Notes under the pieces: generated by a model
Database searches by the model: none
What the model was told of the DNA's origin: nothing
The model's input: only the letters and a program-made list of their open reading frames with translations
Position numbers and translations under genes: made by a program
Shown: positions 23,160-33,404 of the stretch, piece after piece
Layout of the letters: every line of letters starts with the position of its first letter
Numbering within the stretch: the stretch's first letter is position 1
Assembly (NCBI RefSeq): GCF_003014555.1
Contig: NZ_PYGE01000030.1
Coordinates: forward strand, 1-48,604
Reading direction: 5' to 3'
Length of the DNA stretch: 48,604 bases
Source: Haloactinopolyspora alba
GTDB lineage: Bacteria > Actinomycetota > Actinomycetes > Jiangellales > Jiangellaceae

Positions 23160-24182
23160 TCAGGACCGGCCGGGCGGCGCGGTGCTCTCGCGGACGGTCA
23201 GGCTGGTCGCGAGCTCGACGCGCGGGCTTTCGACGTCCTCGCCGCTCGCGAGCCGCAGGACGCTGCGCGCGGCCAGCATGCCCATCTCGGCCAGCGGCTG
23301 GCGGACGGTGGTCAGCGGCGGCGACGACCACCGCGCCTCCTGGAGATCGTCGAACCCGACGACGCTGACGTCGTCGGGCACCCGCCGGCCGCTGCGGCGC
23401 ACGGCCTCGTAGACGCCGAAGGCCATCGTGTCGCTGGAGGCGAAGATCGCGGTGGGCGGGTCGTCGAGCTCCAGCAGAGCGGTGCCGCCGTCGAAACCGG
23501 ACCGGTGGTAGAAGTCGCCGTCGACGACGAGCGCGTCGTCCATCGCGATGCCGGCGGCCTCCAGCCCGGCGCGGTAGCCGTCCGACCGGGCGCGGCTGCA
23601 CATCATGGCGCGCGGGCCGGCGACGAAGCCGATGCGGCGGTGCCCGAGCGAGAGCAGGTGCTCGGTCGCCGCCAGCCCTCCGGCCCAGTTGGTCGCGCCG
23701 AAGGTGGGGGTGTCCAGGGGAGCGCCGCCGACGGAGTCGGCCACCACGATGGGCACGTTCAGCCGCCGCAGCTCGTGCCGCACCGAGGAGTCCAGGTCGG
23801 AGCTGACGAGGATGACGCCGTCGGACGCCCGGTCGCGCAGGTTCTGCAGCCATTGCCGGGCAGCGGCGGGCTCACGGTGCACCGCCGACACGACCGTGCC
23901 GACGCCCGCGGCGTGCATGACGTCCTCCACACCACGGATGATCTCCACCGCCCACGGACTGTCCAGGTCGTTGAAGACCAGGTCGACGAGTCGCGGGCCC
24001 AGCGGATGTGACGAGCGGCGCCGGTAGCCGCGTCGGCGCAGCAGGTCCTCGACCCGCTCGCGGGTACCGGGAGCCACGTCCGAGCGGCCGTTGAGCACCC
24101 TGGACACCGTCGGCACCGACACGCCGGCCTCCCGTGCGATGGCGGTGATGGTGACCTTGCTCCGGTTACTTGCCACCGACAC
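23160..24182 (-). CDS. LacI family transcriptional regulator (first of two paralogues)
   Basis: A 340-residue repressor. The N-terminal helix-turn-helix is V-T-I-T-A-I-A-R-E-A-G-V-S-V-P-T-V-S-R-V with the hinge Y-R-R-R-S-S-H. The periplasmic-binding-like sugar domain has N-D-L-D-S-P-W-A-V-E-I-I-R-G-V-E and V-G-F-D-D-L-Q. GTG 24182 starts 17 bases inside the end of the upstream permease gene, so it is the fourth gene of the sugar ABC operon and is made together with the importer it probably controls. By eye about two-thirds of residues match the second LacI protein (27709-28725). Likely operators are CCGA-centre-TCGG dyads near 27,430 and 27,550. Confidence 0.93.
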   Translation of the reverse strand: MSVASNRSKVTITAIAREAGVSVPTVSRVLNGRSDVAPGTRERVEDLLRRRGYRRRSSHPLGPRLVDLVFNDLDSPWAVEIIRGVEDVMHAAGVGTVVSAVHREPAAARQWLQNLRDRASDGVILVSSDLDSSVRHELRRLNVPIVVADSVGGAPLDTPTFGATNWAGGLAATEHLLSLGHRRIGFVAGPRAMMCSRARSDGYRAGLEAAGIAMDDALVVDGDFYHRSGFDGGTALLELDDPPTAIFASSDTMAFGVYEAVRRSGRRVPDDVSVVGFDDLQEARWSSPPLTTVRQPLAEMGMLAARSVLRLASGEDVESPRVELATSLTVRESTAPPGRS

Positions 24183-24996
24183 CCGCCAACCCCGCGATCA
24201 GCCAGCGGCGGGCGAAGACGTACAGCAGGAACACCGGCACCGCCGACAGCAGCACGGCCATCATCAGGCCGGGGATGTCGACGGCGAACTCCTGCTGGAA
24301 CTCCCGCAGCCCGAGCGTGACCATGGTCTTCGACTCGTCCCGGATGAAGATCAGCGGGAAGATGAAGCTGTTCCAGGCGGTGAGCCCGACGAACACGCAC
24401 ACGGCGGAGATGCTGCCGCGCGACATCGGCACGACCGCGCTGAGCAGGATGCGCAGCGACCCCGCACCGTCGAGCGTCATGGCCTCGTACATGTCCCGCG
24501 GCACGTCGCGCAGCGCACCGGACAGGATCAGGATGACCAGCGGGAGGGTGAAGGCCACCGTCGGCAGGATGACCGCGATCAACGTGTCGTACAGCCCCAT
24601 CTCGGTGATGATCAGATAGAGCGGCACGATCACCGCCTGCGCCGGGATGGCCAGGCCGAGCAGGAACATCCGGAACGACGCGCCGGCGACCCAGCTCTTC
24701 GACCGGACGATCGCGTAGGCGGCCGGGACGGCGAGGACCAGCGACAGGAGGATGCTGCCGACGGTGACGACGGCGGTGTTCCAGTAGTAGTCGAGAAAGC
24801 CGCGGTCGATGACCTCGGTGACGTTGCCGAGCGTCCACACCTGCGGCACGGCGAGCGGGCCGGCGTCGCGGAAGGCCTGCTCGGTGGTCAGGCCCCAGAC
24901 GATCATGCTGAGGATCGGTACTCCGACGACGACCAGCCAGACGGCGGACAGGCCGCCGGCGAGCCAGTTGGGTCGGGCCGTGGATGTGCTGGGCAT
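24166..24996 (-). CDS. Carbohydrate ABC transporter permease (MalG-like)
   Basis: A 276-residue inner-membrane permease with six predicted helices. The EAA docking motif is E-A-M-T-L-D-G-A-G-S-L, which is characteristic of CUT1 sugar importers. The C-terminus (L-Y-V-F-A-R-R-W-L-I-A-G-L) is the typical end of MalG-like proteins. It starts three bases after the MalF-like gene and its last 17 bases overlap the LacI gene. No ATPase gene is in the operon; CUT1 importers commonly share a single MsiK-type ATPase encoded elsewhere. Confidence 0.93.
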   Translation of the reverse strand: MPSTSTARPNWLAGGLSAVWLVVVGVPILSMIVWGLTTEQAFRDAGPLAVPQVWTLGNVTEVIDRGFLDYYWNTAVVTVGSILLSLVLAVPAAYAIVRSKSWVAGASFRMFLLGLAIPAQAVIVPLYLIITEMGLYDTLIAVILPTVAFTLPLVILILSGALRDVPRDMYEAMTLDGAGSLRILLSAVVPMSRGSISAVCVFVGLTAWNSFIFPLIFIRDESKTMVTLGLREFQQEFAVDIPGLMMAVLLSAVPVFLLYVFARRWLIAGLAGVGGK

Positions 24997-24999
24997 CGG

Positions 25000-25995
25000 T
25001 CACATGCCTTCCAGAGTGGAGCGCATCTTGGTGAAGCCGGAGAACCGGACGATCAGCAGCGAGAACGCGGTGGCCACGACCACGAGCACGGTCGCGATGG
25101 CCGACGCGTAGCCCATCTCGAACGCCTCGAAACCCGCGCTGTACATCAGGTACGGCAGGATGCGGGTCGCGCCGCCGGGCCCGCCTCCGGTGATCAGCAG
25201 CACGGTCTCGAACGTGATCAGCGATCCGACGATCATGATCACCGACGAGGTCACGACGGTGTAGCGCAACTGCGGCAGGGTGATGCGCCAGAACATGTCC
25301 CAGCGCCCGGCGCCGTCGATGGTCGCGGCGTCGTACAGCACCGTGGGGACGTTGCGCGCGGCGGCCTGGTACAGCAGCGAGTGGAACGGCACCCACTGCC
25401 ACGCGCTCACGAACACGATCACCAGGAACGCGCCGTGCGCCGTGCCGAGGATGTTGCCGTCCGGGAACCCGATCAGCGGGCCCAGGTCCCTGGCCATGCC
25501 GTAGTTCGGGTCGAGGAACCGGTGGAACAGCACCGCGATGGCCGCGGACGACATCAGCAGCGGCAGGAAGAAGATCGTCGACAGCACGGCCCGGTTGCGC
25601 TGCCGCCCGGCGGCCCAGACGCCGATCGCGATGGCCATGGGCGTCTGGGTGAGCCAGGTGGACGCGGTCAGCGCCAGCGTGATCCCGGTGGACTCGCGGA
25701 CGCGTTCGTCGCCGATCAGCCGTTCCCAGTTGTCCAGGCCAGTCCATCGGATGTCGCCGAAGCCGGGCCACGACGTGAACGACAGCACCACCACGAGCAC
25801 GAGCGGCACGACGGCGAAGACGGTGAAGAACACGACGGCGGGCAGCACGTAGCCCATGCCGGGACGGGGTGCGGCGTCCGAACCGGTCCGGGTTCCGTCC
25901 CGCGCCCGCTTCGGGCGACCCCGCCTCAGCCGGCCCCGCGCCGGACGCGCGGGCGGCAACGGGGGCGCCTCGTCGTCAGGAAGCGGCGTCTTCAT
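25000..25995 (-). CDS. Carbohydrate ABC transporter permease (MalF-like)
   Basis: A 331-residue inner-membrane permease. The first ~45 residues are a Pro/Arg-rich cytosolic tail. Then come six helices, and the EAA motif Y-D-A-A-T-I-D-G-A-G-R-W-D-M-F-W-R-I in its usual place. L-L-I-T-G-G-G-P-G-G-A-T is the G-G-P loop of MalF/UgpA-type subunits. Its start overlaps the end of the binding-protein gene by 20 bases, showing coupled translation. Confidence 0.93.
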   Translation of the reverse strand: MKTPLPDDEAPPLPPARPARGRLRRGRPKRARDGTRTGSDAAPRPGMGYVLPAVVFFTVFAVVPLVLVVVLSFTSWPGFGDIRWTGLDNWERLIGDERVRESTGITLALTASTWLTQTPMAIAIGVWAAGRQRNRAVLSTIFFLPLLMSSAAIAVLFHRFLDPNYGMARDLGPLIGFPDGNILGTAHGAFLVIVFVSAWQWVPFHSLLYQAAARNVPTVLYDAATIDGAGRWDMFWRITLPQLRYTVVTSSVIMIVGSLITFETVLLITGGGPGGATRILPYLMYSAGFEAFEMGYASAIATVLVVVATAFSLLIVRFSGFTKMRSTLEGM

Positions 25996-27319
25996 TGGCC
26001 TGCACGAAGCCTTCGGCGTCGAGGTTGCCCAGGAAGACGTTCTCCATGGCCTCGAGCATCGGCTGCGCCTGCGGACGGGCGATGGCCTGGTCCCACGACA
26101 GCTGGAAGTTCGGTGCGTTCGCGGCCATGGCGTACACGAACCCGAAGTACTCCTCGTGCTCGTGCCCCTCGATGAGCGTCTCGATGTTCGCCACCGCGGG
26201 GATGTCGCCGACGTCGAGCAGGTCCTGGACGTACGTGTCGGAAGCCATCTCCTGCTTCAGGTAGTTGATCGCGACCTCCTTCAGCGGCGAGTCGGCGTGC
26301 ACGGAGAAGTAGTTCGTCGGGTTGCCGGCGACGTTCTCCGGGTCGCCCTCGCCGTCCTCGAGCGCCGGGAACGGGCCCCAGGCGAGGCTGTTGGTGACGA
26401 AGCCGGGCGCGTCCTCGAGGAAGTTCGTGTACTCCCAGCTGCCCGACAGCATCATCGCGGCGCGGCCGTCCGAGAGCAGCGGGCCGGAGTCGTCGTAGGC
26501 CACGGACGCGAAGGCGTCGCCGAAGGCACCCCGGTCGACCAGGTCGCGGATCGTCTCGACCGTGCGCGTGATCGCCGGGTGCGCCCACCCCTCGCCGGTG
26601 CCCTCGGCGATGTCCTGGAACACCTGGGCCCCGCCGAGCCGGTCGGTGAGGTACTCGAACCACATGAGCAGTGGCCACTGGTCGGCCGCGCCCACCGCCA
26701 CGGGCGTGATGTCCTCGGCGGCGAAGGCGTCGACGGCGTCCAGGAAGTCCTGCCAGGTGGTGGGGACCTCGAGGCCGACCTGGTCGAACAGGGCGGTGTT
26801 GTAGAACATCAGCTTGGGCTGCATGGTCCGCATCGGGATGCCGTAATAGGCGCCGTCGATCTGGCCGGCCTGCAGCACCGACTGCAGGAAGGCGTTCTTG
26901 AACTCGGAATCCTCCTCCAGGTACGGGGTGAGGTCCTCGACCAGGCCCGCCCGGACGTAGGAGCGGATGCTGCCGCCGCCCCAGTTGAAGAAGATGTCCG
27001 GCCGCTCGTCCTGGTCGATGATGGTCTGCAGTACGTCGCGGTAGCTCTCGTTGGGCTCGGTGATCAGGTTCGCCTTGACGTCGGTCCCGCCGAAGAAGCG
27101 GTCCAGCGAGGCCCGGCTGACTGGGTTCACCGCGTCTTCCTGCAGCACCCAGACATCGAGCTCACCGCTGGCCTGGGCGGGATCGCCGGCGCTGTCCAGG
27201 TCGGCCGCGGCTTGCGAGCCGTTCGAGTCGTCACTGCACGACGTGGTGGCCAGTGCCGTCGCGCCGGCACCGAGAGCCGCCAGAAACGTCCGGCGGGGAA
27301 TCGTGCGGGGTGCGGTCAT
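25976..27319 (-). CDS. Carbohydrate ABC transporter, substrate-binding lipoprotein
   Basis: A 447-residue family-1 sugar-binding protein, first gene of the importer operon. The leader has twin arginines (R-R-T-F-L, Arg9-Arg10) and a lipobox ending in T-T-S-C-S (Cys28), so it is probably a Tat-exported lipoprotein. Typical SBP_bac_1 stretches follow: F-N-W-G-G-G-S-I-R-S-Y, M-F-Y-N-T-A-L-F-D-Q-V-G-L and A-A-M-M-L-S-G-S-W-E-Y. GGAGGA sits six bases before the ATG. The promoter with a repressor-like dyad lies about 110 bases upstream. The GH3 glycosidase next to the locus suggests an oligosaccharide or glycoside ligand. Confidence 0.93.
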   Translation of the reverse strand: MTAPRTIPRRTFLAALGAGATALATTSCSDDSNGSQAAADLDSAGDPAQASGELDVWVLQEDAVNPVSRASLDRFFGGTDVKANLITEPNESYRDVLQTIIDQDERPDIFFNWGGGSIRSYVRAGLVEDLTPYLEEDSEFKNAFLQSVLQAGQIDGAYYGIPMRTMQPKLMFYNTALFDQVGLEVPTTWQDFLDAVDAFAAEDITPVAVGAADQWPLLMWFEYLTDRLGGAQVFQDIAEGTGEGWAHPAITRTVETIRDLVDRGAFGDAFASVAYDDSGPLLSDGRAAMMLSGSWEYTNFLEDAPGFVTNSLAWGPFPALEDGEGDPENVAGNPTNYFSVHADSPLKEVAINYLKQEMASDTYVQDLLDVGDIPAVANIETLIEGHEHEEYFGFVYAMAANAPNFQLSWDQAIARPQAQPMLEAMENVFLGNLDAEGFVQANEDAAS

Positions 27320-27424
27320 GATCGTCCTCCAGACGAGAGCTTCCGGGTCGCTGCGGCGGCTGCCCGGACCTGCTTCCGGGTTCTCGGTTCAGCTGTGTCT
27401 GAGCGGTGGTGAGGATCGATTGTT

Positions 27425-27468
27425 CCGATAGTTTCGGGTACGTTACAGCGGCTCTCCGTAACGGTCAA
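27425..27468 (-). promoter_or_regulatory. Promoter and LacI-type operator of the sugar ABC operon
   Basis: On the minus strand TTGACC (27463-27468), a spacer of exactly 17 bases, and TAACGT (27440-27445) form a good sigma-70-type promoter. CCGATAGTTTCGG (27425-27437, plus-strand reading), a dyad with CCGA/TCGG arms, begins two bases past the -10 box and so covers the transcription start, a classic repressor position. Confidence 0.7.
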
Positions 27469-27547
27469 CCCCCAGATGTGCTGCGGCTTTGTCCGAATAA
27501 CGGGTTGGCGTGCCGGACCTGTGTTGCGGCGTCGTCGCGCTGTGCTT

Positions 27548-27561
27548 CCGAAAGTTTTCGG
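27548..27561. promoter_or_regulatory. Second LacI-type operator, CCGAAAGTTTTCGG
   Basis: A dyad with perfect CCGAAA/TTTCGG arms, about 80 bases upstream of the importer's -35 box and 150 bases behind the second LacI gene. It could allow looping with the start-site operator. Apart from these sites and the family-B repeat at 27632, the 27,320-27,708 gap shows nothing else. Confidence 0.5.
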
Positions 27562-27631
27562 TCGCGGAGTGCCGACATGACCGGCCCACCGTCAACGGGG
27601 GCGCTCTGCGGTCGCATGATCTGTCCGGACG

Positions 27632-27648
27632 GGAGATCATGAGGCGTC
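27632..27648 (+). repeat. Family-B repeat, copy 2 (GGAGATCATGAGGCGTC)
   Basis: Sixteen of 17 bases match 41927-41943 (the T near the end is G here). A weaker opposing arm GCATGATCT lies just upstream (about 27614-27622), making a small dyad. It is about 60 bases behind the stop of the second LacI gene. Confidence 0.5.
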
Positions 27649-27708
27649 TACGGCCTCGACACGCCTCCGATGGCGTGGGTGGTCTTCAACGGATCACACT
27701 CGCGCGGC

Positions 27709-28725
27709 TCAGCCGGATGCGGCGGGCGCGGTGCTCTCGCGGGGCACCAGCGTGGTGGCGAGCTCCAGGCGCGGGCTCGCCTCGGGCTCGCCCGCGGCCA
27801 GCCGCAGGACGGTGCGCGCGGCCACGGCGCCCATCTCGGACAGCGGCTGGCGGACCGTGGTGAGCGGCGGAGACGCCCACCGGACCTCGGGCAGGTCGTC
27901 GAAGCCCACGATGCTGACGTCCGCGGGCACCCGCAGGCCCTGCCGCCGGACCGCCTCGTAGGCGCCGATGGCCATCTGGTCGCTCGAGGCGGCGATCGCG
28001 GTGGGCGGGTCGTCGAGCTTCAGCAGTGCGTTCGCGCCGTCGAAGCCGGACTCGTGGTAGAAGTCGCCCTCCTGGACGAGCTCGTCGTCGAGCGTGAGCC
28101 CGGCTGCCCGCAACCCTGCGCGGTACCCGTCGAGGCGGGCACGGCTGCACAGCAACCGCCGCGGACCGGCGATGACGCCGATGCGCCGGTGATCGAGCGA
28201 CAGCAGATGCTCGACGGCGGACAGCCCGCCCGCCCAGTTGGTGGCGCCGATGGTCGGCGCCTCGATGGTGGGCCCGCCTGCCGGGTCGACGACGACGATG
28301 GGGACGTTGAGCCGGTGCAGTTCCGCCTGCAGCGGCGTGTCCAGGGTGGATGTCACGAGGATCACGCCGTCGGAGGCGCGTGCGCGCAGGTTGGACAGCC
28401 ACTGCCGGGCAGGTTCGGAGCGGCGATGGATGGCGGAGACGACCGTGCCGGCGCCCGAGCCGTGCGCGACGTCCTCGACGCCGCGGATGATCTCCACCGC
28501 CCACGGGCTGTCCAGGTCGTTGAAGACGAGGTCGATCAGCCGGGCGGTGGTGCTGGGGCGCGACGAACGGCGCCGGTAACCGTGCCGGTTGAGCAGGTCC
28601 TCCACCCGGCGGCGGGTCTCCGGCGCGACGTCGGAGCGTCCGTTGACCACGCGGGACACCGTCGGTACCGAGACGCCGGCCTCCTGCGCGACGGCGCTGA
28701 TGGTGACTCTGCGCTCCTCGCTCAT
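27709..28725 (-). CDS. LacI family transcriptional regulator (second paralogue)
   Basis: A 338-residue repressor with helix-turn-helix V-T-I-S-A-V-A-Q-E-A-G-V-S-V-P-T-V-S-R-V and hinge Y-R-R-R-S-S-R. The sugar domain carries the same N-D-L-D-S-P-W-A-V-E-I-I-R-G-V-E as the first LacI. The recognition helix is identical in both, so they probably bind the same or overlapping operators, while pocket residues differ. Of several in-frame starts (28749, 28734, 28725) the ATG at 28725 is chosen because GATAAT lies exactly seven bases before it. It is divergent from the GH3 gene. Likely a duplicate that splits control of uptake and hydrolysis. Confidence 0.9.
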   Translation of the reverse strand: MSEERRVTISAVAQEAGVSVPTVSRVVNGRSDVAPETRRRVEDLLNRHGYRRRSSRPSTTARLIDLVFNDLDSPWAVEIIRGVEDVAHGSGAGTVVSAIHRRSEPARQWLSNLRARASDGVILVTSTLDTPLQAELHRLNVPIVVVDPAGGPTIEAPTIGATNWAGGLSAVEHLLSLDHRRIGVIAGPRRLLCSRARLDGYRAGLRAAGLTLDDELVQEGDFYHESGFDGANALLKLDDPPTAIAASSDQMAIGAYEAVRRQGLRVPADVSIVGFDDLPEVRWASPPLTTVRQPLSEMGAVAARTVLRLAAGEPEASPRLELATTLVPRESTAPAASG

Positions 28726-28732
28726 GCCGACC

Positions 28733-28738
28733 ATTATC
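28733..28738 (-). promoter_or_regulatory. -10 hexamer GATAAT, leaderless start of the second LacI gene
   Basis: On the minus strand GATAAT ends seven bases before ATG 28725. It decides among three possible starts. Confidence 0.45.
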
Positions 28739-28777
28739 GCGCCCGTCACGCCGTGGCTGCGTCATTCCGGTCGCGCG

Positions 28778-28911
28778 CCGAAAGTTGCGGCCGTACGTCG
28801 CGGCCGCGCGTGGACATCGTCGCAGAAGATCTCCGGTTGGCTTCGCGTCCAGGGTGATAACGTGACCGTTCCGCAAGCGAAATGTTCGGCATCACGACCG
28901 GAAATTCTCGG
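28778..28911. promoter_or_regulatory. Divergent regulatory region with two LacI-type operator candidates
   Basis: CCGAAAGTTGCGG (28778-28790) and CCGGAAATTCTCGG (28898-28911) resemble the dyad at 27548; the second matches it at 11 of 14 positions. They flank the region between the LacI and GH3 genes. TAACGT (28858-28863), identical to the importer's -10 box, may be the GH3 -10 box, but its -35 partner TTGGCT has a short 15-base spacer. Confidence 0.4.
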
Positions 28912-28933
28912 AAATCGAGCGACGGAGCGGTTC

Positions 28934-31342
28934 ATGCGAGCTGACCACGACGGCGAGCCGGTCGCCGACCAACCGGCGCCCGTGTCCCGGGCCGGGGACG
29001 GCACCTGGCTGGACACGACGCTGCCGGCGCCGGAACGGGTGGCGGCGTTGCTGGCGGCGATGAGCCTGGAGGAGAAGGTCGCGCAGCTGTACGGCGTCTG
29101 GGTGGGCGCGGACCCCGCGGGTGCGGCGGTCGCTCCGCACCAGCACGAGCTGGCCGACGACACGCCGGACTTCGGGGCGCTGATCCGCCACGGGCTGGGA
29201 CAGCTGACCCGGCCGTTCGGCACCGCGGCCGTCGACGCCACCGAGGGCGCCAGAGCGCTGGCGAAGATGCAGAGCGAGGTCGTGACGGCCAATCGTTTCG
29301 GCATCCCGGCGCTGGTGCACGAGGAGTGCCTGACCGGATTCATGACAGCCGGGGCGACCATCTTCCCGACGCCGCTGGCCTGGGGAGCGACGTTCGACCC
29401 CGGCCTGGTCGAGCGGATGGCCGGCTACGTGGGCGCGTCGTTGCGGTCGGTGGGCGTGCACCAGGCGCTGGCTCCGGTTCTCGACGTGCTCCGTGACCCT
29501 CGCTGGGGGCGCACCGAGGAGACCGTCGGCGAGGACCCGTACCTGGTCGGCACGGTCGGAACGGCGTACGTGCGCGGACTGCAGTCCACCGGTGTCGTCG
29601 CCACCCTCAAACACTTCGCCGGATACTCCGCGTCCGTGGCCGGACGCAACCTCGCGCCGGTGCGGGTGGGGCCGCGGGAGTTCGCGGACGTGTTCGTCCC
29701 GCCGTTCGAGATGGCGATCCGTGCCGGAGGCGCCCGCTCGGTGATGAGCTCGTACACCGAGATCGACGGCGTCCCCACCGCCGCCGATCCGGGCGTACTC
29801 ACCGACCTGCTCCGCGACCGGCTGGGATTCACCGGGACGGTCGTGGCCGACTACTTCGGCGTGTCCTTCCTGGAGCTGCTCCACGGCGTGGCGGGCTCGG
29901 CCGGCGACGCGGGCGCGCAGGCGCTGGCCGCCGGTGTCGACGTCGAGCTGCCGAGCGTGCGCTGCTACGGCGACGCGCTGCTCGACGAGCTGCGCTCCGG
30001 TGCGGTCCCGGAGTGGCACGTCGACCGGGCCGCGGCCCGCGTCCTGGCGCAGAAGTGCGAGCTCGGGCTGCTCGACCCGGACTGGGAACCGGGCCCGCCG
30101 GCGCTGCGCGAGCCGGGAGCGAGCGTCGACCTGGATCCGCCGGACGGGCGCGCGCTGGCCCGCGAGGTCGCCGAGGAGTCGGTCGTGCTGCTGGCCAACG
30201 ACGGGACGCTGCCGCTGCCGCCCGCCGGGGGCGTCGCCGTCGTCGGCCCGCTCGCCGACGAGCCGGAGGCGATGCTGGGCTGCTACACCTTTCCCAGCCA
30301 CATGGGCCGCGGCGGGCCCGGCGGCCCCGAGGAGCTGCCGGGGGTGGCCGTTCCCACCCTGCTGGACGGCATCCGTGCGGCGCTGCCCGACGCGAGGCTC
30401 ACCCATGCCGAGGGCTGCGACGTCGTCGGCACCGACGCCTCCGGGTTCGACGCCGCTGTCGCGGCGGCCGCCGGCGCCGACGTGTGCGTGGCCGTCGTCG
30501 GCGACCGTGCCGGCCTGTTCGGCCGTGGCACCTCCGGCGAAGGATGCGACGCCCAGGACCTCCGGCTGCCGGGCGTGCAGGAACAGCTGGTGCACGCGCT
30601 CGCCGACACCGGGACCCCGGTGGTTCTGGTGCTGTGCACGGGCCGCCCGTACGCCCTCGGCGCGTTCGGCGACCGGCTCGCGGCCGTCGTGCAGGCGTTC
30701 TTCCCGGGTGAGGAGGGCGGGCGGGCGGTGGCCGGCGTGCTCTCCGGGCGGGTGTGCCCGTCCGGGCGGCTGCCGGTCAGCGTGCCCCGCGAGCCCGGCG
30801 GGCAGCCGGCCACCTATCTCGCACCGCCGCTCGGGCACCGTTCCGAGGTCAGCTCCGGCGACCCGACGCCGCTGTATCCGTTCGGGTACGGGCTGTCCTA
30901 CACCTCGTTCGCCTGGGACGACCTGCGGGTGGGGACGGACGAGCCGGCGCCGGCCGACGGCCCGGTCGAGTGCGGCACCGACGGCGCGGTGTCGCTGTCC
31001 GTGCGGGTCCGGAACACCGGCGACCGGGACGGGGCCGAGGTCGTACAGCTGTACCTGCACGACCCGGTCGCTCAGGTGACCCGGCCGCCGGTGCGGCTGA
31101 TCGGCTACGCCAGGGTCGTGCTGCGGCCGGGGGAGCAGCGCCGGGTCGCGTTCCGCGTGCACGCCGACCTGACCGCGTTCACCGGCCGGGACGGCCGCCG
31201 CGTCGTGGAGCCCGGCGCCATCGAGCTGAGGCCCGCGCGATCGTGCCTGGACGCCGAGCACGCCGCCGCGGTGACCCTGGTCGGCCCGGAGCGCGTCGTC
31301 GACCACACGCCACACCTGACGGCGCAGGTGAGCGTGTCATGA
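28934..31342 (+). CDS. Glycoside hydrolase family 3 (beta-glucosidase/beta-xylosidase type)
   Basis: An 802-residue enzyme without signal peptide, so intracellular. N-terminal (beta/alpha)8 domain: L-K-H-F-A-G-Y (Lys226-His227, substrate binding), R-S-V-M-S-S-Y-T-E-I-D-G-V-P and T-V-V-A-D-Y-F-G with Asp306 as the expected nucleophile. The alpha/beta sandwich domain follows (S-V-V-L-L-A-N-D-G-T-L-P-L), then a fibronectin-III-like C-terminal domain after L-Y-P-F-G-Y-G-L-S-Y-T-S-F. It should cleave glycosides imported by the neighbouring ABC system. ATG 28934 has GGAG before it. Its stop overlaps the Gfo/Idh gene start. Whether glucose or xylose is released cannot be told. Confidence 0.93.
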   Translation: MRADHDGEPVADQPAPVSRAGDGTWLDTTLPAPERVAALLAAMSLEEKVAQLYGVWVGADPAGAAVAPHQHELADDTPDFGALIRHGLGQLTRPFGTAAVDATEGARALAKMQSEVVTANRFGIPALVHEECLTGFMTAGATIFPTPLAWGATFDPGLVERMAGYVGASLRSVGVHQALAPVLDVLRDPRWGRTEETVGEDPYLVGTVGTAYVRGLQSTGVVATLKHFAGYSASVAGRNLAPVRVGPREFADVFVPPFEMAIRAGGARSVMSSYTEIDGVPTAADPGVLTDLLRDRLGFTGTVVADYFGVSFLELLHGVAGSAGDAGAQALAAGVDVELPSVRCYGDALLDELRSGAVPEWHVDRAAARVLAQKCELGLLDPDWEPGPPALREPGASVDLDPPDGRALAREVAEESVVLLANDGTLPLPPAGGVAVVGPLADEPEAMLGCYTFPSHMGRGGPGGPEELPGVAVPTLLDGIRAALPDARLTHAEGCDVVGTDASGFDAAVAAAAGADVCVAVVGDRAGLFGRGTSGEGCDAQDLRLPGVQEQLVHALADTGTPVVLVLCTGRPYALGAFGDRLAAVVQAFFPGEEGGRAVAGVLSGRVCPSGRLPVSVPREPGGQPATYLAPPLGHRSEVSSGDPTPLYPFGYGLSYTSFAWDDLRVGTDEPAPADGPVECGTDGAVSLSVRVRNTGDRDGAEVVQLYLHDPVAQVTRPPVRLIGYARVVLRPGEQRRVAFRVHADLTAFTGRDGRRVVEPGAIELRPARSCLDAEHAAAVTLVGPERVVDHTPHLTAQVSVS

Positions 31343-32442
31343 CCGGGACGTACGAGATCGCCCTCGTCGGCACCGGAGGCATCGCGGGCGTGCACGCCGG
31401 CGACGTCGCGACGCTCGGCCCCCGCGCGCGCATCGTCGCCGCCGTCGACCCGGAGGCGGACAGGCTGGACGCGTTCGCCGACACCTGGTCGATCCCGCAC
31501 CGCTACCGGAGTCTGGACGATCTGCTCGAGGCGCGCAGCCCGGACCTGGTGGACCTGTGCACCCCGCCGGCGCTGCACGCGGCGCAGGCCGTCGAGTGCG
31601 TGCGGCGCGGCCTGGCGGTGCTGTGCGAGAAGCCACCGGCGCTGAGCCTGGCCGAGATGGACGAGATCGCGGCGGCCGAGGCGGCCGGCGGCGGCACGTT
31701 CGCCACCGTCTTCCAGCACCGGTTCGGCAGCGCCGCGGCGTCACTGCGCGGTCTCGTGGGCGACGCGCGCATCGGGCGGCCGACGGCGGCGGTGTGCCAC
31801 ACGCTGTGGTACCGGCCGGACGCGTACTTCGCGCCGTCGTGGCGCGGGTCGTGGGAGGCCGAGGGCGGCGGTCCGACGATGGGTCACGGCATCCACCAGA
31901 TGGATCTCATGCTGTCCGTGCTCGGGCCGTGGCAGGACGTGACGGCGGTGGCCGCCCGGCGGTTCCGGCCCACCGACACCGAGGACATCTCGGCGGCGAT
32001 CGTGACGTTCGAGAGCGGCGCCGTGGCGACGGTGGTGAACAGCCTGCTGTCCCCGCGCGAGACCAGCTACCTCAGGTTCGACTTCGAGCACGCCACGGTG
32101 GAGGTCGAGCACCTCTACGGCTACCGGGACGACGACTGGCGGGTGACACCGACCCCGGAGCACGCCGACGCGGTGGCCGCCGCCTGGGCCGACGGCCCGG
32201 CGGGCCGCCCGAGCGGGCACGCGGCACAGCTCGGCGCGGTGCTCGACGCGCTGGACGACGGAGACGTGCCACCGGTGAGCACCGCCGACGCGTGGAGCAC
32301 GATGGAACTGATCGCCGCGGTGTACGCGTCGTCGTTCACCCGCCGGCCGGTACGCCGCGGCGAGATCGACCCCGACTCGCCCTTCTACCGGCGGATGGAC
32401 GGCACCGGTGCGCCGTGGATGCCGAAAGGAGCCGCTACGTGA
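31339..32442 (+). CDS. Gfo/Idh/MocA family NAD(P)-dependent oxidoreductase
   Basis: A 367-residue sugar dehydrogenase-like protein. The Rossmann motif is A-L-V-G-T-G-G-I-A-G-V-H, followed by the C-E-K-P-P motif of the family (catalytic Lys region) and a C-terminal alpha/beta domain with G-G-G-P-T-M-G-H-G-I-H-Q-M-D (conserved HxxD). It probably oxidises or reduces a hydroxyl of the sugar handled by this operon, perhaps at C3. ATG 31339 overlaps the GH3 stop by ATGA, and its own stop overlaps the DUF6807 gene start (GTGA), so the three proteins are made together. Confidence 0.92.
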   Translation: MTGTYEIALVGTGGIAGVHAGDVATLGPRARIVAAVDPEADRLDAFADTWSIPHRYRSLDDLLEARSPDLVDLCTPPALHAAQAVECVRRGLAVLCEKPPALSLAEMDEIAAAEAAGGGTFATVFQHRFGSAAASLRGLVGDARIGRPTAAVCHTLWYRPDAYFAPSWRGSWEAEGGGPTMGHGIHQMDLMLSVLGPWQDVTAVAARRFRPTDTEDISAAIVTFESGAVATVVNSLLSPRETSYLRFDFEHATVEVEHLYGYRDDDWRVTPTPEHADAVAAAWADGPAGRPSGHAAQLGAVLDALDDGDVPPVSTADAWSTMELIAAVYASSFTRRPVRRGEIDPDSPFYRRMDGTGAPWMPKGAAT

Positions 32443-33404
32443 CCGAACCGGACCACCACGGCCTGCACCTGGTGCACGAGCACGGGCTGTCGCTGCGTAT
32501 CGGCGCCGGCGGCCGGGAGTTGGCACGCTACGTCTACCGGCCGTGGGACCGCCAGCTCGAGTCGCCGCGTCCGTACTTCCATCCGCTGCGCACGCTCGGC
32601 GGGGACGTCGTCAGCCTGTACCGCCCGCACGACCACGTCTGGCACAAGGGCATCGCGTGGTCGGTGGCGAACGTCGGCGGGCCGGGCGCGGGTGACGGGC
32701 AGGACCAGCAGAACTTCTGGGGCGGCACCACGTACCTGCGCGGCGCCGGATACCAGCAGCTGGACAACGACGGCGCGATCCGGCACCGCGAGTTCGCCCA
32801 CCTCGAGGCTGGCCCGGAGCGAGTGGACGTCGCGCATCGGCTGGACTGGGTGACCCAGGACGCGCGGGCCTGGGTCGACGAGCTGCGCCGGTTCACCGTC
32901 ACGCTGACCGACCAGGCCTGGGTGCTGACCTTCGTCACCGAGCTCACGAACGTCAGCGGGCACGCACTGACCATGGGCAGCCCGACCACACAGGGCCGCG
33001 AGAACGCCGGATACGGCGGGCTGTTCTGGCGCGGTCCACGCTCGTTCACCGGCGGCACCGTCCACGCCCCGGGCCGCGCCGGCGGTGACGAACTGATGGG
33101 GGTGCGCGCTCCGTGGCTGGGCTTCACCGGTGTGCACGACGAGCACGGGCGGTCGTCGACCCTGGTCGTCGTGGACGACCCGGACAATGCGGGGCATCCC
33201 ACTCAGTGGTTCGTCCGTTCCGAGCCGTTCGCCTGCCTGTGCCCGGCGCCGTTCTTCAGTGCCGAGGTCGAGATCGCCCCCGGCGACAGTCTGGGCCTGC
33301 GCTACGCGGTGGTCGTCGCCGACGGCGACCCGGGCACCGAGGGCGCCGAGCGGCTCGCGGCGTCGGGACGGGCGGCACTGGCCGGCTGGGGCGCGGCGAG
33401 GTAG
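32439..33404 (+). CDS. DUF6807 ('PmoA family') protein
   Basis: A 321-residue cytosolic protein of the family labelled PmoA/DUF6807. This is not the methane monooxygenase subunit of that name. Conserved stretches seen: R-P-Y-F-H-P-L-R-T-L-G-G (about 44-55), Y-R-P-H-D-H-V-W-H-K-G (His64, His66, His69), F-W-G-G, and R-E-N-A-G-Y-G-G-L-F-W-R-G-P-R-S-F. The His cluster and aromatic residues suggest a carbohydrate- or metal-binding site. The family is typically found beside Gfo/Idh dehydrogenases in sugar loci, as here, but no reaction is established. GTG 32439 follows an AAAGGAG. The last gene of the operon; repeats follow. Confidence 0.85.
   Translation: MTEPDHHGLHLVHEHGLSLRIGAGGRELARYVYRPWDRQLESPRPYFHPLRTLGGDVVSLYRPHDHVWHKGIAWSVANVGGPGAGDGQDQQNFWGGTTYLRGAGYQQLDNDGAIRHREFAHLEAGPERVDVAHRLDWVTQDARAWVDELRRFTVTLTDQAWVLTFVTELTNVSGHALTMGSPTTQGRENAGYGGLFWRGPRSFTGGTVHAPGRAGGDELMGVRAPWLGFTGVHDEHGRSSTLVVVDDPDNAGHPTQWFVRSEPFACLCPAPFFSAEVEIAPGDSLGLRYAVVVADGDPGTEGAERLAASGRAALAGWGAAR

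Follow-up and report, generated by a model that had tools for sequence, protein, structure and literature searches.

The closest described relative of the locus treated here, a sugar importer bracketed by two LacI-family repressor genes on a 48,604 nt contig of Haloactinopolyspora alba (NZ_PYGE01000030.1, analyzed over its whole length and hereafter called the window), is the bxl system of Streptomyces (BxlR, BxlEFG, and BxlA), whose regulator BxlR is released by xylobiose. A further point of reference is the GalR/GalS pair of E. coli, which have their operators and inducer in common but are expressed differently. BxlR is reported to recognize the pattern CGAANxTTCG, the motif CGAANNTTTCG is found in regions tied to the BxlR homologue of SirexAA-E, and the reference gene order is R-E-F-G-A with a single regulator (PMC12772271). 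GalR and GalS are described as LacI-family paralogues and called isorepressors (PMC3877293), and AraQ and MalR1 of Bifidobacterium breve are LacI-type regulators with gel shifts on the same promoter segments (PMC6882875). No report of a doubled BxlR was found in listings of open-licence papers.

The window contains a conserved and fairly ordinary arrangement, a bxl-like locus with a probable pair of isorepressors. The importer operon runs in the order solute-binding lipoprotein (SBP), permease, permease, LacI-A. The LacI-B gene, which shares this strand, is located upstream and points away from a gene for a GH3 enzyme (Table 1). This bears out the gene arrangement described in the first-pass annotation, which had placed one LacI gene last in the importer operon and the other, transcribed toward it, beside the GH3 gene. 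The first 17 bp of LacI-A overlap the 3' end of the gene for permease 2; no sign of a terminator was seen after LacI-B in the window. The GH3 product reaches 1103.1 bits against a cut-off of 1050 for the NCBIfam beta-xylosidase/alpha-L-arabinosidase model. The closest solved structure to the SBP is 3vxb/3vxc (E-value 3.8e-102; next 1e-42), annotated as a putative sugar-binding lipoprotein and which we take to be BxlE of S. thermoviolaceus. Accordingly, a BxlE-like SBP with two permeases and a GH3 beta-xylosidase gene are both present in the locus. We consider it rather probable that this is a bxl-type locus in which a pair of isorepressors answers one class of inducer, with LacI-B expressed from a leaderless promoter and LacI-A fed back from the importer operon.

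LacI-A and LacI-B are identical at 244 of 333 positions (73%). Both score above the cut-offs of PF00356 (LacI helix-turn-helix, HTH) and PF13377 (sensor), which assigns them to the LacI/GalR family, and the remaining 34 of the 36 matches to LacI-B in the same genome are at most 40% identical. Eight of the 44 HTH positions differ between the two, none of them equivalent to LacI 17, 18, and 22, which we take to be the base-reading positions; shared residues at these equivalents are as expected of isorepressors. The recognition helices had initially been called identical, which holds for the base-reading residues and has to be amended for a single L/V difference among the 11 positions of the recognition-helix region (LacI 16-26). 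The sequence VSVPTVSRV[V/L/I]NGR is found in 85 of 98 related proteins. The hinge of both proteins (encoded at 23985-24030 and 28535-28580) is without the A-x-x-L pattern of E. coli LacI, and the operator motif of these regulators, taken in its best register, lacks a CG at the center.

This motif was derived from related loci, whose regions were used only where the LacI match was at least 65% identical. Among the 149 upstream regions obtained, TTCCGGAA occurred in 65, against 0.27 expected from simple 40-base block shuffles. Three regions from the window were added, and removal of similar sequences reduced the total to 102, on which a palindromic fit favored the odd 19-mer TTcCGGAAnnnTTCCGgAA over an even 20-mer (784 vs. 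684 bits); still wider odd motifs (21-25) fitted better than the 19-mer and left the core unchanged. An initial fit of the matrices used all 102 regions and was followed by 20 rounds of re-estimation on the 89 regions that exclude the family and the window, so that a slight leak from the initial fit is possible. With the 19-mer from the 89 regions, eight of the nine best places in the window fall into the two intergenic regions on the importer side (27320-27708) and the GH3 side (28726-28933), which together comprise 597 bp of 48.6 kb. In order of rank, the nine start at 28896, 27443, 28858, 28820, 27546, 28765, 24779, 27535, and 27545; only 24779 lies outside the two regions, and joining overlaps leaves six separate places inside. 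The places at 27443, 28858, and 28820 are absent from the first-pass annotation and no conservation of them was seen; 27443 overlaps the importer promoter. Plain CCGA/TCGG dyads were rejected as operator evidence because they are too common in the window for a dyad alone to be significant (CCGA-N5-TCGG occurs 10 times, CCGA-N6-TCGG three times). In three related loci (L066, L058, and L062), several operator-like sites one helical turn apart precede LacI genes, with matches that overlap at 11-bp steps from about -180 to -150 upstream of LacI.

Such dyads had been proposed at four places in the window. They are exact at 27425 (CCGATAGTTTCGG) and 27548 (CCGAAAGTTTTCGG), whereas neither 28778 (CCGAAAGTTGCGG) nor 28898 (CCGGAAATTCTCGG) forms one. 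By matrix rank among 48,586 19-mers and 48,585 20-mers, respectively, three of the places hold up as candidate operators: 28898 (1 and 2), 27548 (5 and 1), and 27425 (14 and 7). The place at 28778 as drawn does not (1963 and 1406); the conserved element there is the overlapping TTCCGGTCGCGCGCCGAAA at 28765-28783, which ranks sixth among 19-mers.

Conservation of these sites was followed in five family loci, which are the window, G006, G002 (Phytoactinopolyspora halophila), G012 (P. endophytica), and G010 (P. halotolerans). At the importer start, C[CG]GAAACTA[TC]CG[GA] is present in all five, together with a TTGACC-TAACGT promoter whose spacer measures 17-18 bp throughout. The second importer site, TTCCGGAA, which reads CTTTCGGAAG in the window, likewise has a counterpart in 5/5 loci. 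The centers of the two sites are 118.5 bp apart in the window (27431 and 27549), 119.5 bp in each of G006, G002, and G012, and 117.5 bp in G010. In G006 and G002, the start of a divergent gene is close to the second site, whereas no such gene separates the SBP gene from LacI-B in the window and G010. The spacing stays within 117.5-119.5 bp in either case, a hint that the two sites may act jointly. The divergent gene of G006 is about 2 kb long (L045:763-2826), resembles by eye a secreted glycosidase, and is absent from the window; the beginning of a similar gene is found in G002 (L043, left of the SBP gene).

On the GH3 side, GACCGGAAA(A)TTNTCG occupies the stretch from about 40 to about 20 bp ahead of the GH3 start codon in all three family loci that have GH3 (window, G006, and G002). 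The element at 28765 lies 169, 170, and 176 bp from GH3 in the window, G002, and G006, respectively, and 40, 117, and 126 bp from the LacI-B start codon. As its distance is kept to GH3 and not to LacI-B, it seems to belong to GH3. No conserved operator of LacI-B's own was seen in the family loci compared.

Table 1. Genes, putative promoter elements, and candidate operators of the locus (window coordinates; a dot marks features given without strand).
Feature	Coordinates	Strand	Remarks
LacI-A	23160..24182	-	340 amino acids; GTG start; last gene of importer operon
ABC sugar importer permease 2	24166..24996	-	BPD_transp_1
ABC sugar importer permease 1	25000..25995	-	BPD_transp_1
Solute-binding lipoprotein (SBP)	25976..27319	-	structure-relative and domain matches
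Importer operator (predicted) CCGAAACTATCGG	27425..27437	-	over expected start site, 2 bp after -10
Importer -10 TAACGT	27440..27445	-	3/6 match to TATAAT; in 5/5 family loci
Importer -35 TTGACC	27463..27468	-	17 bp spacer; in 5/5 family loci
Upstream operator-like site CTTCCGAAAGTTTTCGGTCG	27545..27564	.	20-mer rank 1, 19-mer rank 5
LacI-B	27709..28725	-	338 amino acids; ATG at 28725
Possible -10 of leaderless LacI-B promoter CGATAATG	28732..28739	-	few bases before ATG
Upstream GH3 operator-like element TTCCGGTCGCGCGCCGAAAGTTGCGG	28765..28790	.	28778 of the first-pass annotation is its right part
GH3 operator-like site GACCGGAAATTCTCGGAAA	28896..28914	.	19-mer rank 1 of 48,586; ends about 20 bp before GH3 ATG
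GH3 beta-xylosidase/alpha-L-arabinosidase	28934..31342	+	NF052329
Gfo/Idh/MocA oxidoreductase	31339..32442	+	domain match
DUF6807 protein	32439..33404	+	domain match

The paired sites also figure in a reading that we regard as rather unlikely, in which LacI-A and LacI-B would form heterodimers on shared sites, the sites about 119 bp apart would act together, e.g., by looping, and the mix of A and B would shift the inducer threshold during induction. Such a shift could follow from LacI-A being made only with the importer and carrying changes at the border of the sugar pocket such as Q248T. If true, a single sugar and two repressors of nearly equal kind would constitute a self-tuning switch.

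Whether both proteins read the same sites can be judged from genomes with a single copy. Phytomonospora endophytica (L097) and two Actinophytocola loci (L099 and L111) have one close LacI protein (73-76%) encoded at the end of the importer operon, with next-best LacI matches of 50% or less in these genomes, and they carry CCGAAA[CG]TT sites before GH3 and before the importer. G010, which has LacI-B only, retains the importer operator. Since genomes with a single copy at either the A or the B place keep the site type, such sites can apparently be served by a LacI protein from either place. With the agreement of the base-reading residues and the matrix hits in both control regions, this supports by inference the shared operator type proposed at the outset, and both repressors probably read the same DNA switches. 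A division of labor, with LacI-A acting mainly on the importer and LacI-B mainly on GH3 through overlapping but distinct site preferences, would suit the gene positions and the differences in sequence and best register between the sites at the two promoters; it is quite unlikely in view of the identical base-reading residues, the importer operator kept alongside LacI-B in G010, and the sites found before both GH3 and importer in the single-copy (A place) species.

The distribution of the pair was examined in 21 genomes of the genus and family plus the H. alba genome itself. Both copies are found at matching places in G002 and G006, so that the pair is intact in three of the 22 genomes, and it is decayed or reduced in two: in G012, LacI-B is open and the LacI gene at the A place is broken, and in G010, only LacI-B is present, with no close LacI-A copy among the matches listed. 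For the other 17 of the 21 relatives, the best E-value is 7.3e-99 or weaker and identity does not exceed 53% among the matches listed. In a tree of 98 proteins, the three A and five B rows form separate clades (supports 99/90 and 100/99) nested, together with the protein of Phytomonospora endophytica (L097), in a clade of nine rows (99/91); the same groups appear in a 29-row tree (A 92/91, B 98/95, nine rows 97/94). Holding A and B together as nearest kin was not rejected (p-AU 0.226), with L097 joining them in the nine-row clade. Because A and B form separate clades, each with orthologues at the same gene places, the duplication seems to be older than the split of these genera.

These data also bear on the idea that one copy is a leftover duplicate in decay without a separate role. 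The broken A gene of G012, the lack of a close A copy in G010 and the lack of a close copy in 17 of the 21 relatives, both among the matches listed, would fit such redundancy, which we nevertheless hold to be quite improbable: three genomes have open reading frames for both copies, each 77-81% identical to its own orthologues, and G012 and G010 have other locus genes broken or missing from the stretch examined as well. In the G012 locus (L046:4011-7695), the gene in the position of LacI-A is broken, as is that of the binding protein, and no GH3 match was found in the 24 kb examined. Elsewhere, two LacI genes flank GH3 in six Streptomyces loci (L084, L094, L103, L119, L126, and L131), with identities to LacI-B of 71-73% and 54-57%, and tandem LacI copies near 70% occur in L110 and L122.

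For the sugar pocket, a published set of 15 LacI positions near the pocket or the core pivot (PMC8009258) was compared, and in addition eight further positions that we take to be pocket positions. LacI-A and LacI-B agree at 11 of these 15 and at 7/8 of the further positions, against a core background of 194/265, the 15-position set thus being no better conserved than the background. Differences within the set are confined to positions 125, 127, 192, and 248, and among the eight to 148. Variation is seen at 125 and 127 among other orthologues and at 192 within each of the A and B clades; at 248, two of the three A proteins have T and every one of the five B proteins has Q. By contrast, positions 69, 73, 75, 149, 161, 197, 220, 274, 275, 276, 291, and 293 are identical in all three A and five B proteins. 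Across 18 sequences (3 A, 5 B, and 10 others, with L084b left out as an outlier), 15 of the 23 pocket positions are invariant, compared with 111 of 262 core positions. Five columns, LacI 106, 229, 253, 282, and 318, are fixed within A and within B yet different between them, and none is in the pocket lists. The main sugar-contact positions are hence the same and a few border positions differ, which leaves the earlier proposal of different pockets and two sugars unsupported; it is possible that the affinity for one sugar is tuned differently between the two proteins. The least probable of the explanations, that LacI-A and LacI-B bind the same sites, answer different sugars, and combine the two signals, could draw on the five differences, on position 127 (T in 5/5 B; D, P, and D in A), and on a LacI substitution at 248 reported to raise the EC50 (PMC8009258), and is opposed by the main contact positions being identical in all eight proteins and by the absence of the clade-fixed columns from the position lists used.

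In the explanation that we prefer, the locus would encode a bxl-type importer for xylobiose or xylo/arabino-oligosaccharides, and its two BxlR-like isorepressors would go back to an old duplication. LacI-A and LacI-B would both bind one class of operator, situated over the start of the importer operon and just before GH3, each site being joined by another some 118-135 bp farther upstream, and both proteins would probably be released by the same kind of oligosaccharide. Judged by sequence, the two genes would be transcribed from different promoters. LacI-B, made constitutively from its own leaderless promoter, would set the resting level of repression, while LacI-A, produced when the importer operon is on, would exert feedback on the importer and on GH3 with increasing induction and help to shut both once the sugar runs out.

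Several points weigh against this explanation. The identity of the sugar is presumed from relatives, operator binding and expression control by the pair are predicted from sequence, and the hinge differs between LacI-A and LacI-B. A promoter scan reported neither the importer nor the LacI-B promoter; the importer promoter, with its weak -10, was missed because three matches in six are below the rule of the scan. The leaderless LacI-B promoter noted in the first-pass annotation is plausible in that CGATAATG precedes the LacI-B ATG in 5/5 family loci, although the scan gave no promoter there. The 19-mer counts at scores of 4.7 and 8 speak for the explanation, being reached in at most 0.1% of 2000 shuffles per region (at 4.7 never), but these thresholds were chosen after the scores were known, and the single best scores were matched in 10 and 25 shuffles and are only moderately rare; the corresponding numbers for the 20-mer are 1 and 3. 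The 20-mer is less specific, with four of its eight best places in the two intergenic regions and ranks 3-6 elsewhere. Finally, LacI-B may be autoregulated in the window, where the 28765 element is so close to its start codon.

A wider regulon was not found in motif searches of the H. alba genome. CSGAAANTWYCGG occurs at four places in this genome, compared with none for the backward control. The three places outside the window were rejected as a regulon, as the adjoining open reading frames, by eye a binding protein of another kind and luciferase-like, flavodoxin-like, and TetR- and HrcA-like products, look unrelated to xylan use. TTCCGGAANNNTTCCGGAA with three mismatches matched 12 places, vs. 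six for backward controls, and none of them is in the window.

The locus lends itself as a small natural experiment on the retention of two near-identical repressors in bacteria, since one type of site is seen in relatives with both copies, in those with one close copy at the operon place, and in those with the upstream copy only. An operator can further be sketched from it for a group of LacI regulators that many actinobacteria possess.

Compared with the bxl system, the window shares the LacI regulator, the BxlE-like SBP with two permeases, and the GH3 xylosidase. Its operator-like sites come close to the CGAANxTTCG pattern (PMC12772271) to differing degrees: CGAA-N4-TTCG is matched at 27548, the minus-strand reading of 27425, CGAAACTATCG, is one base away from CGAANNTTTCG, and 28898 departs from the strict pattern. 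Unlike the reference order, the window reads R2-E-F-G-R1, with two repressors instead of one, one of them last in the importer operon, and with a divergent GH3 gene followed by Gfo/Idh/MocA and DUF6807 genes. The latter two genes also trail GH3 in G002, L061, L078, L097, L099, and L111. Streptomyces loci such as L084 are alike in that two related LacI genes flank GH3, in L084 together with a distant importer, but their second LacI gene is a paralogue of much greater age whose recognition helix is altered (AGVSAPTVSKVLNGR). AraQ and MalR1 differ in being regulators of central carbon metabolism and not a local pair, with operators centered on CG (PMC6882875). GalR and GalS resemble LacI-A and LacI-B as a LacI-family paralogue pair (PMC3877293), whereas the genes described here are within 6 kb of each other at their presumed target locus and the operator sequence is a different one.

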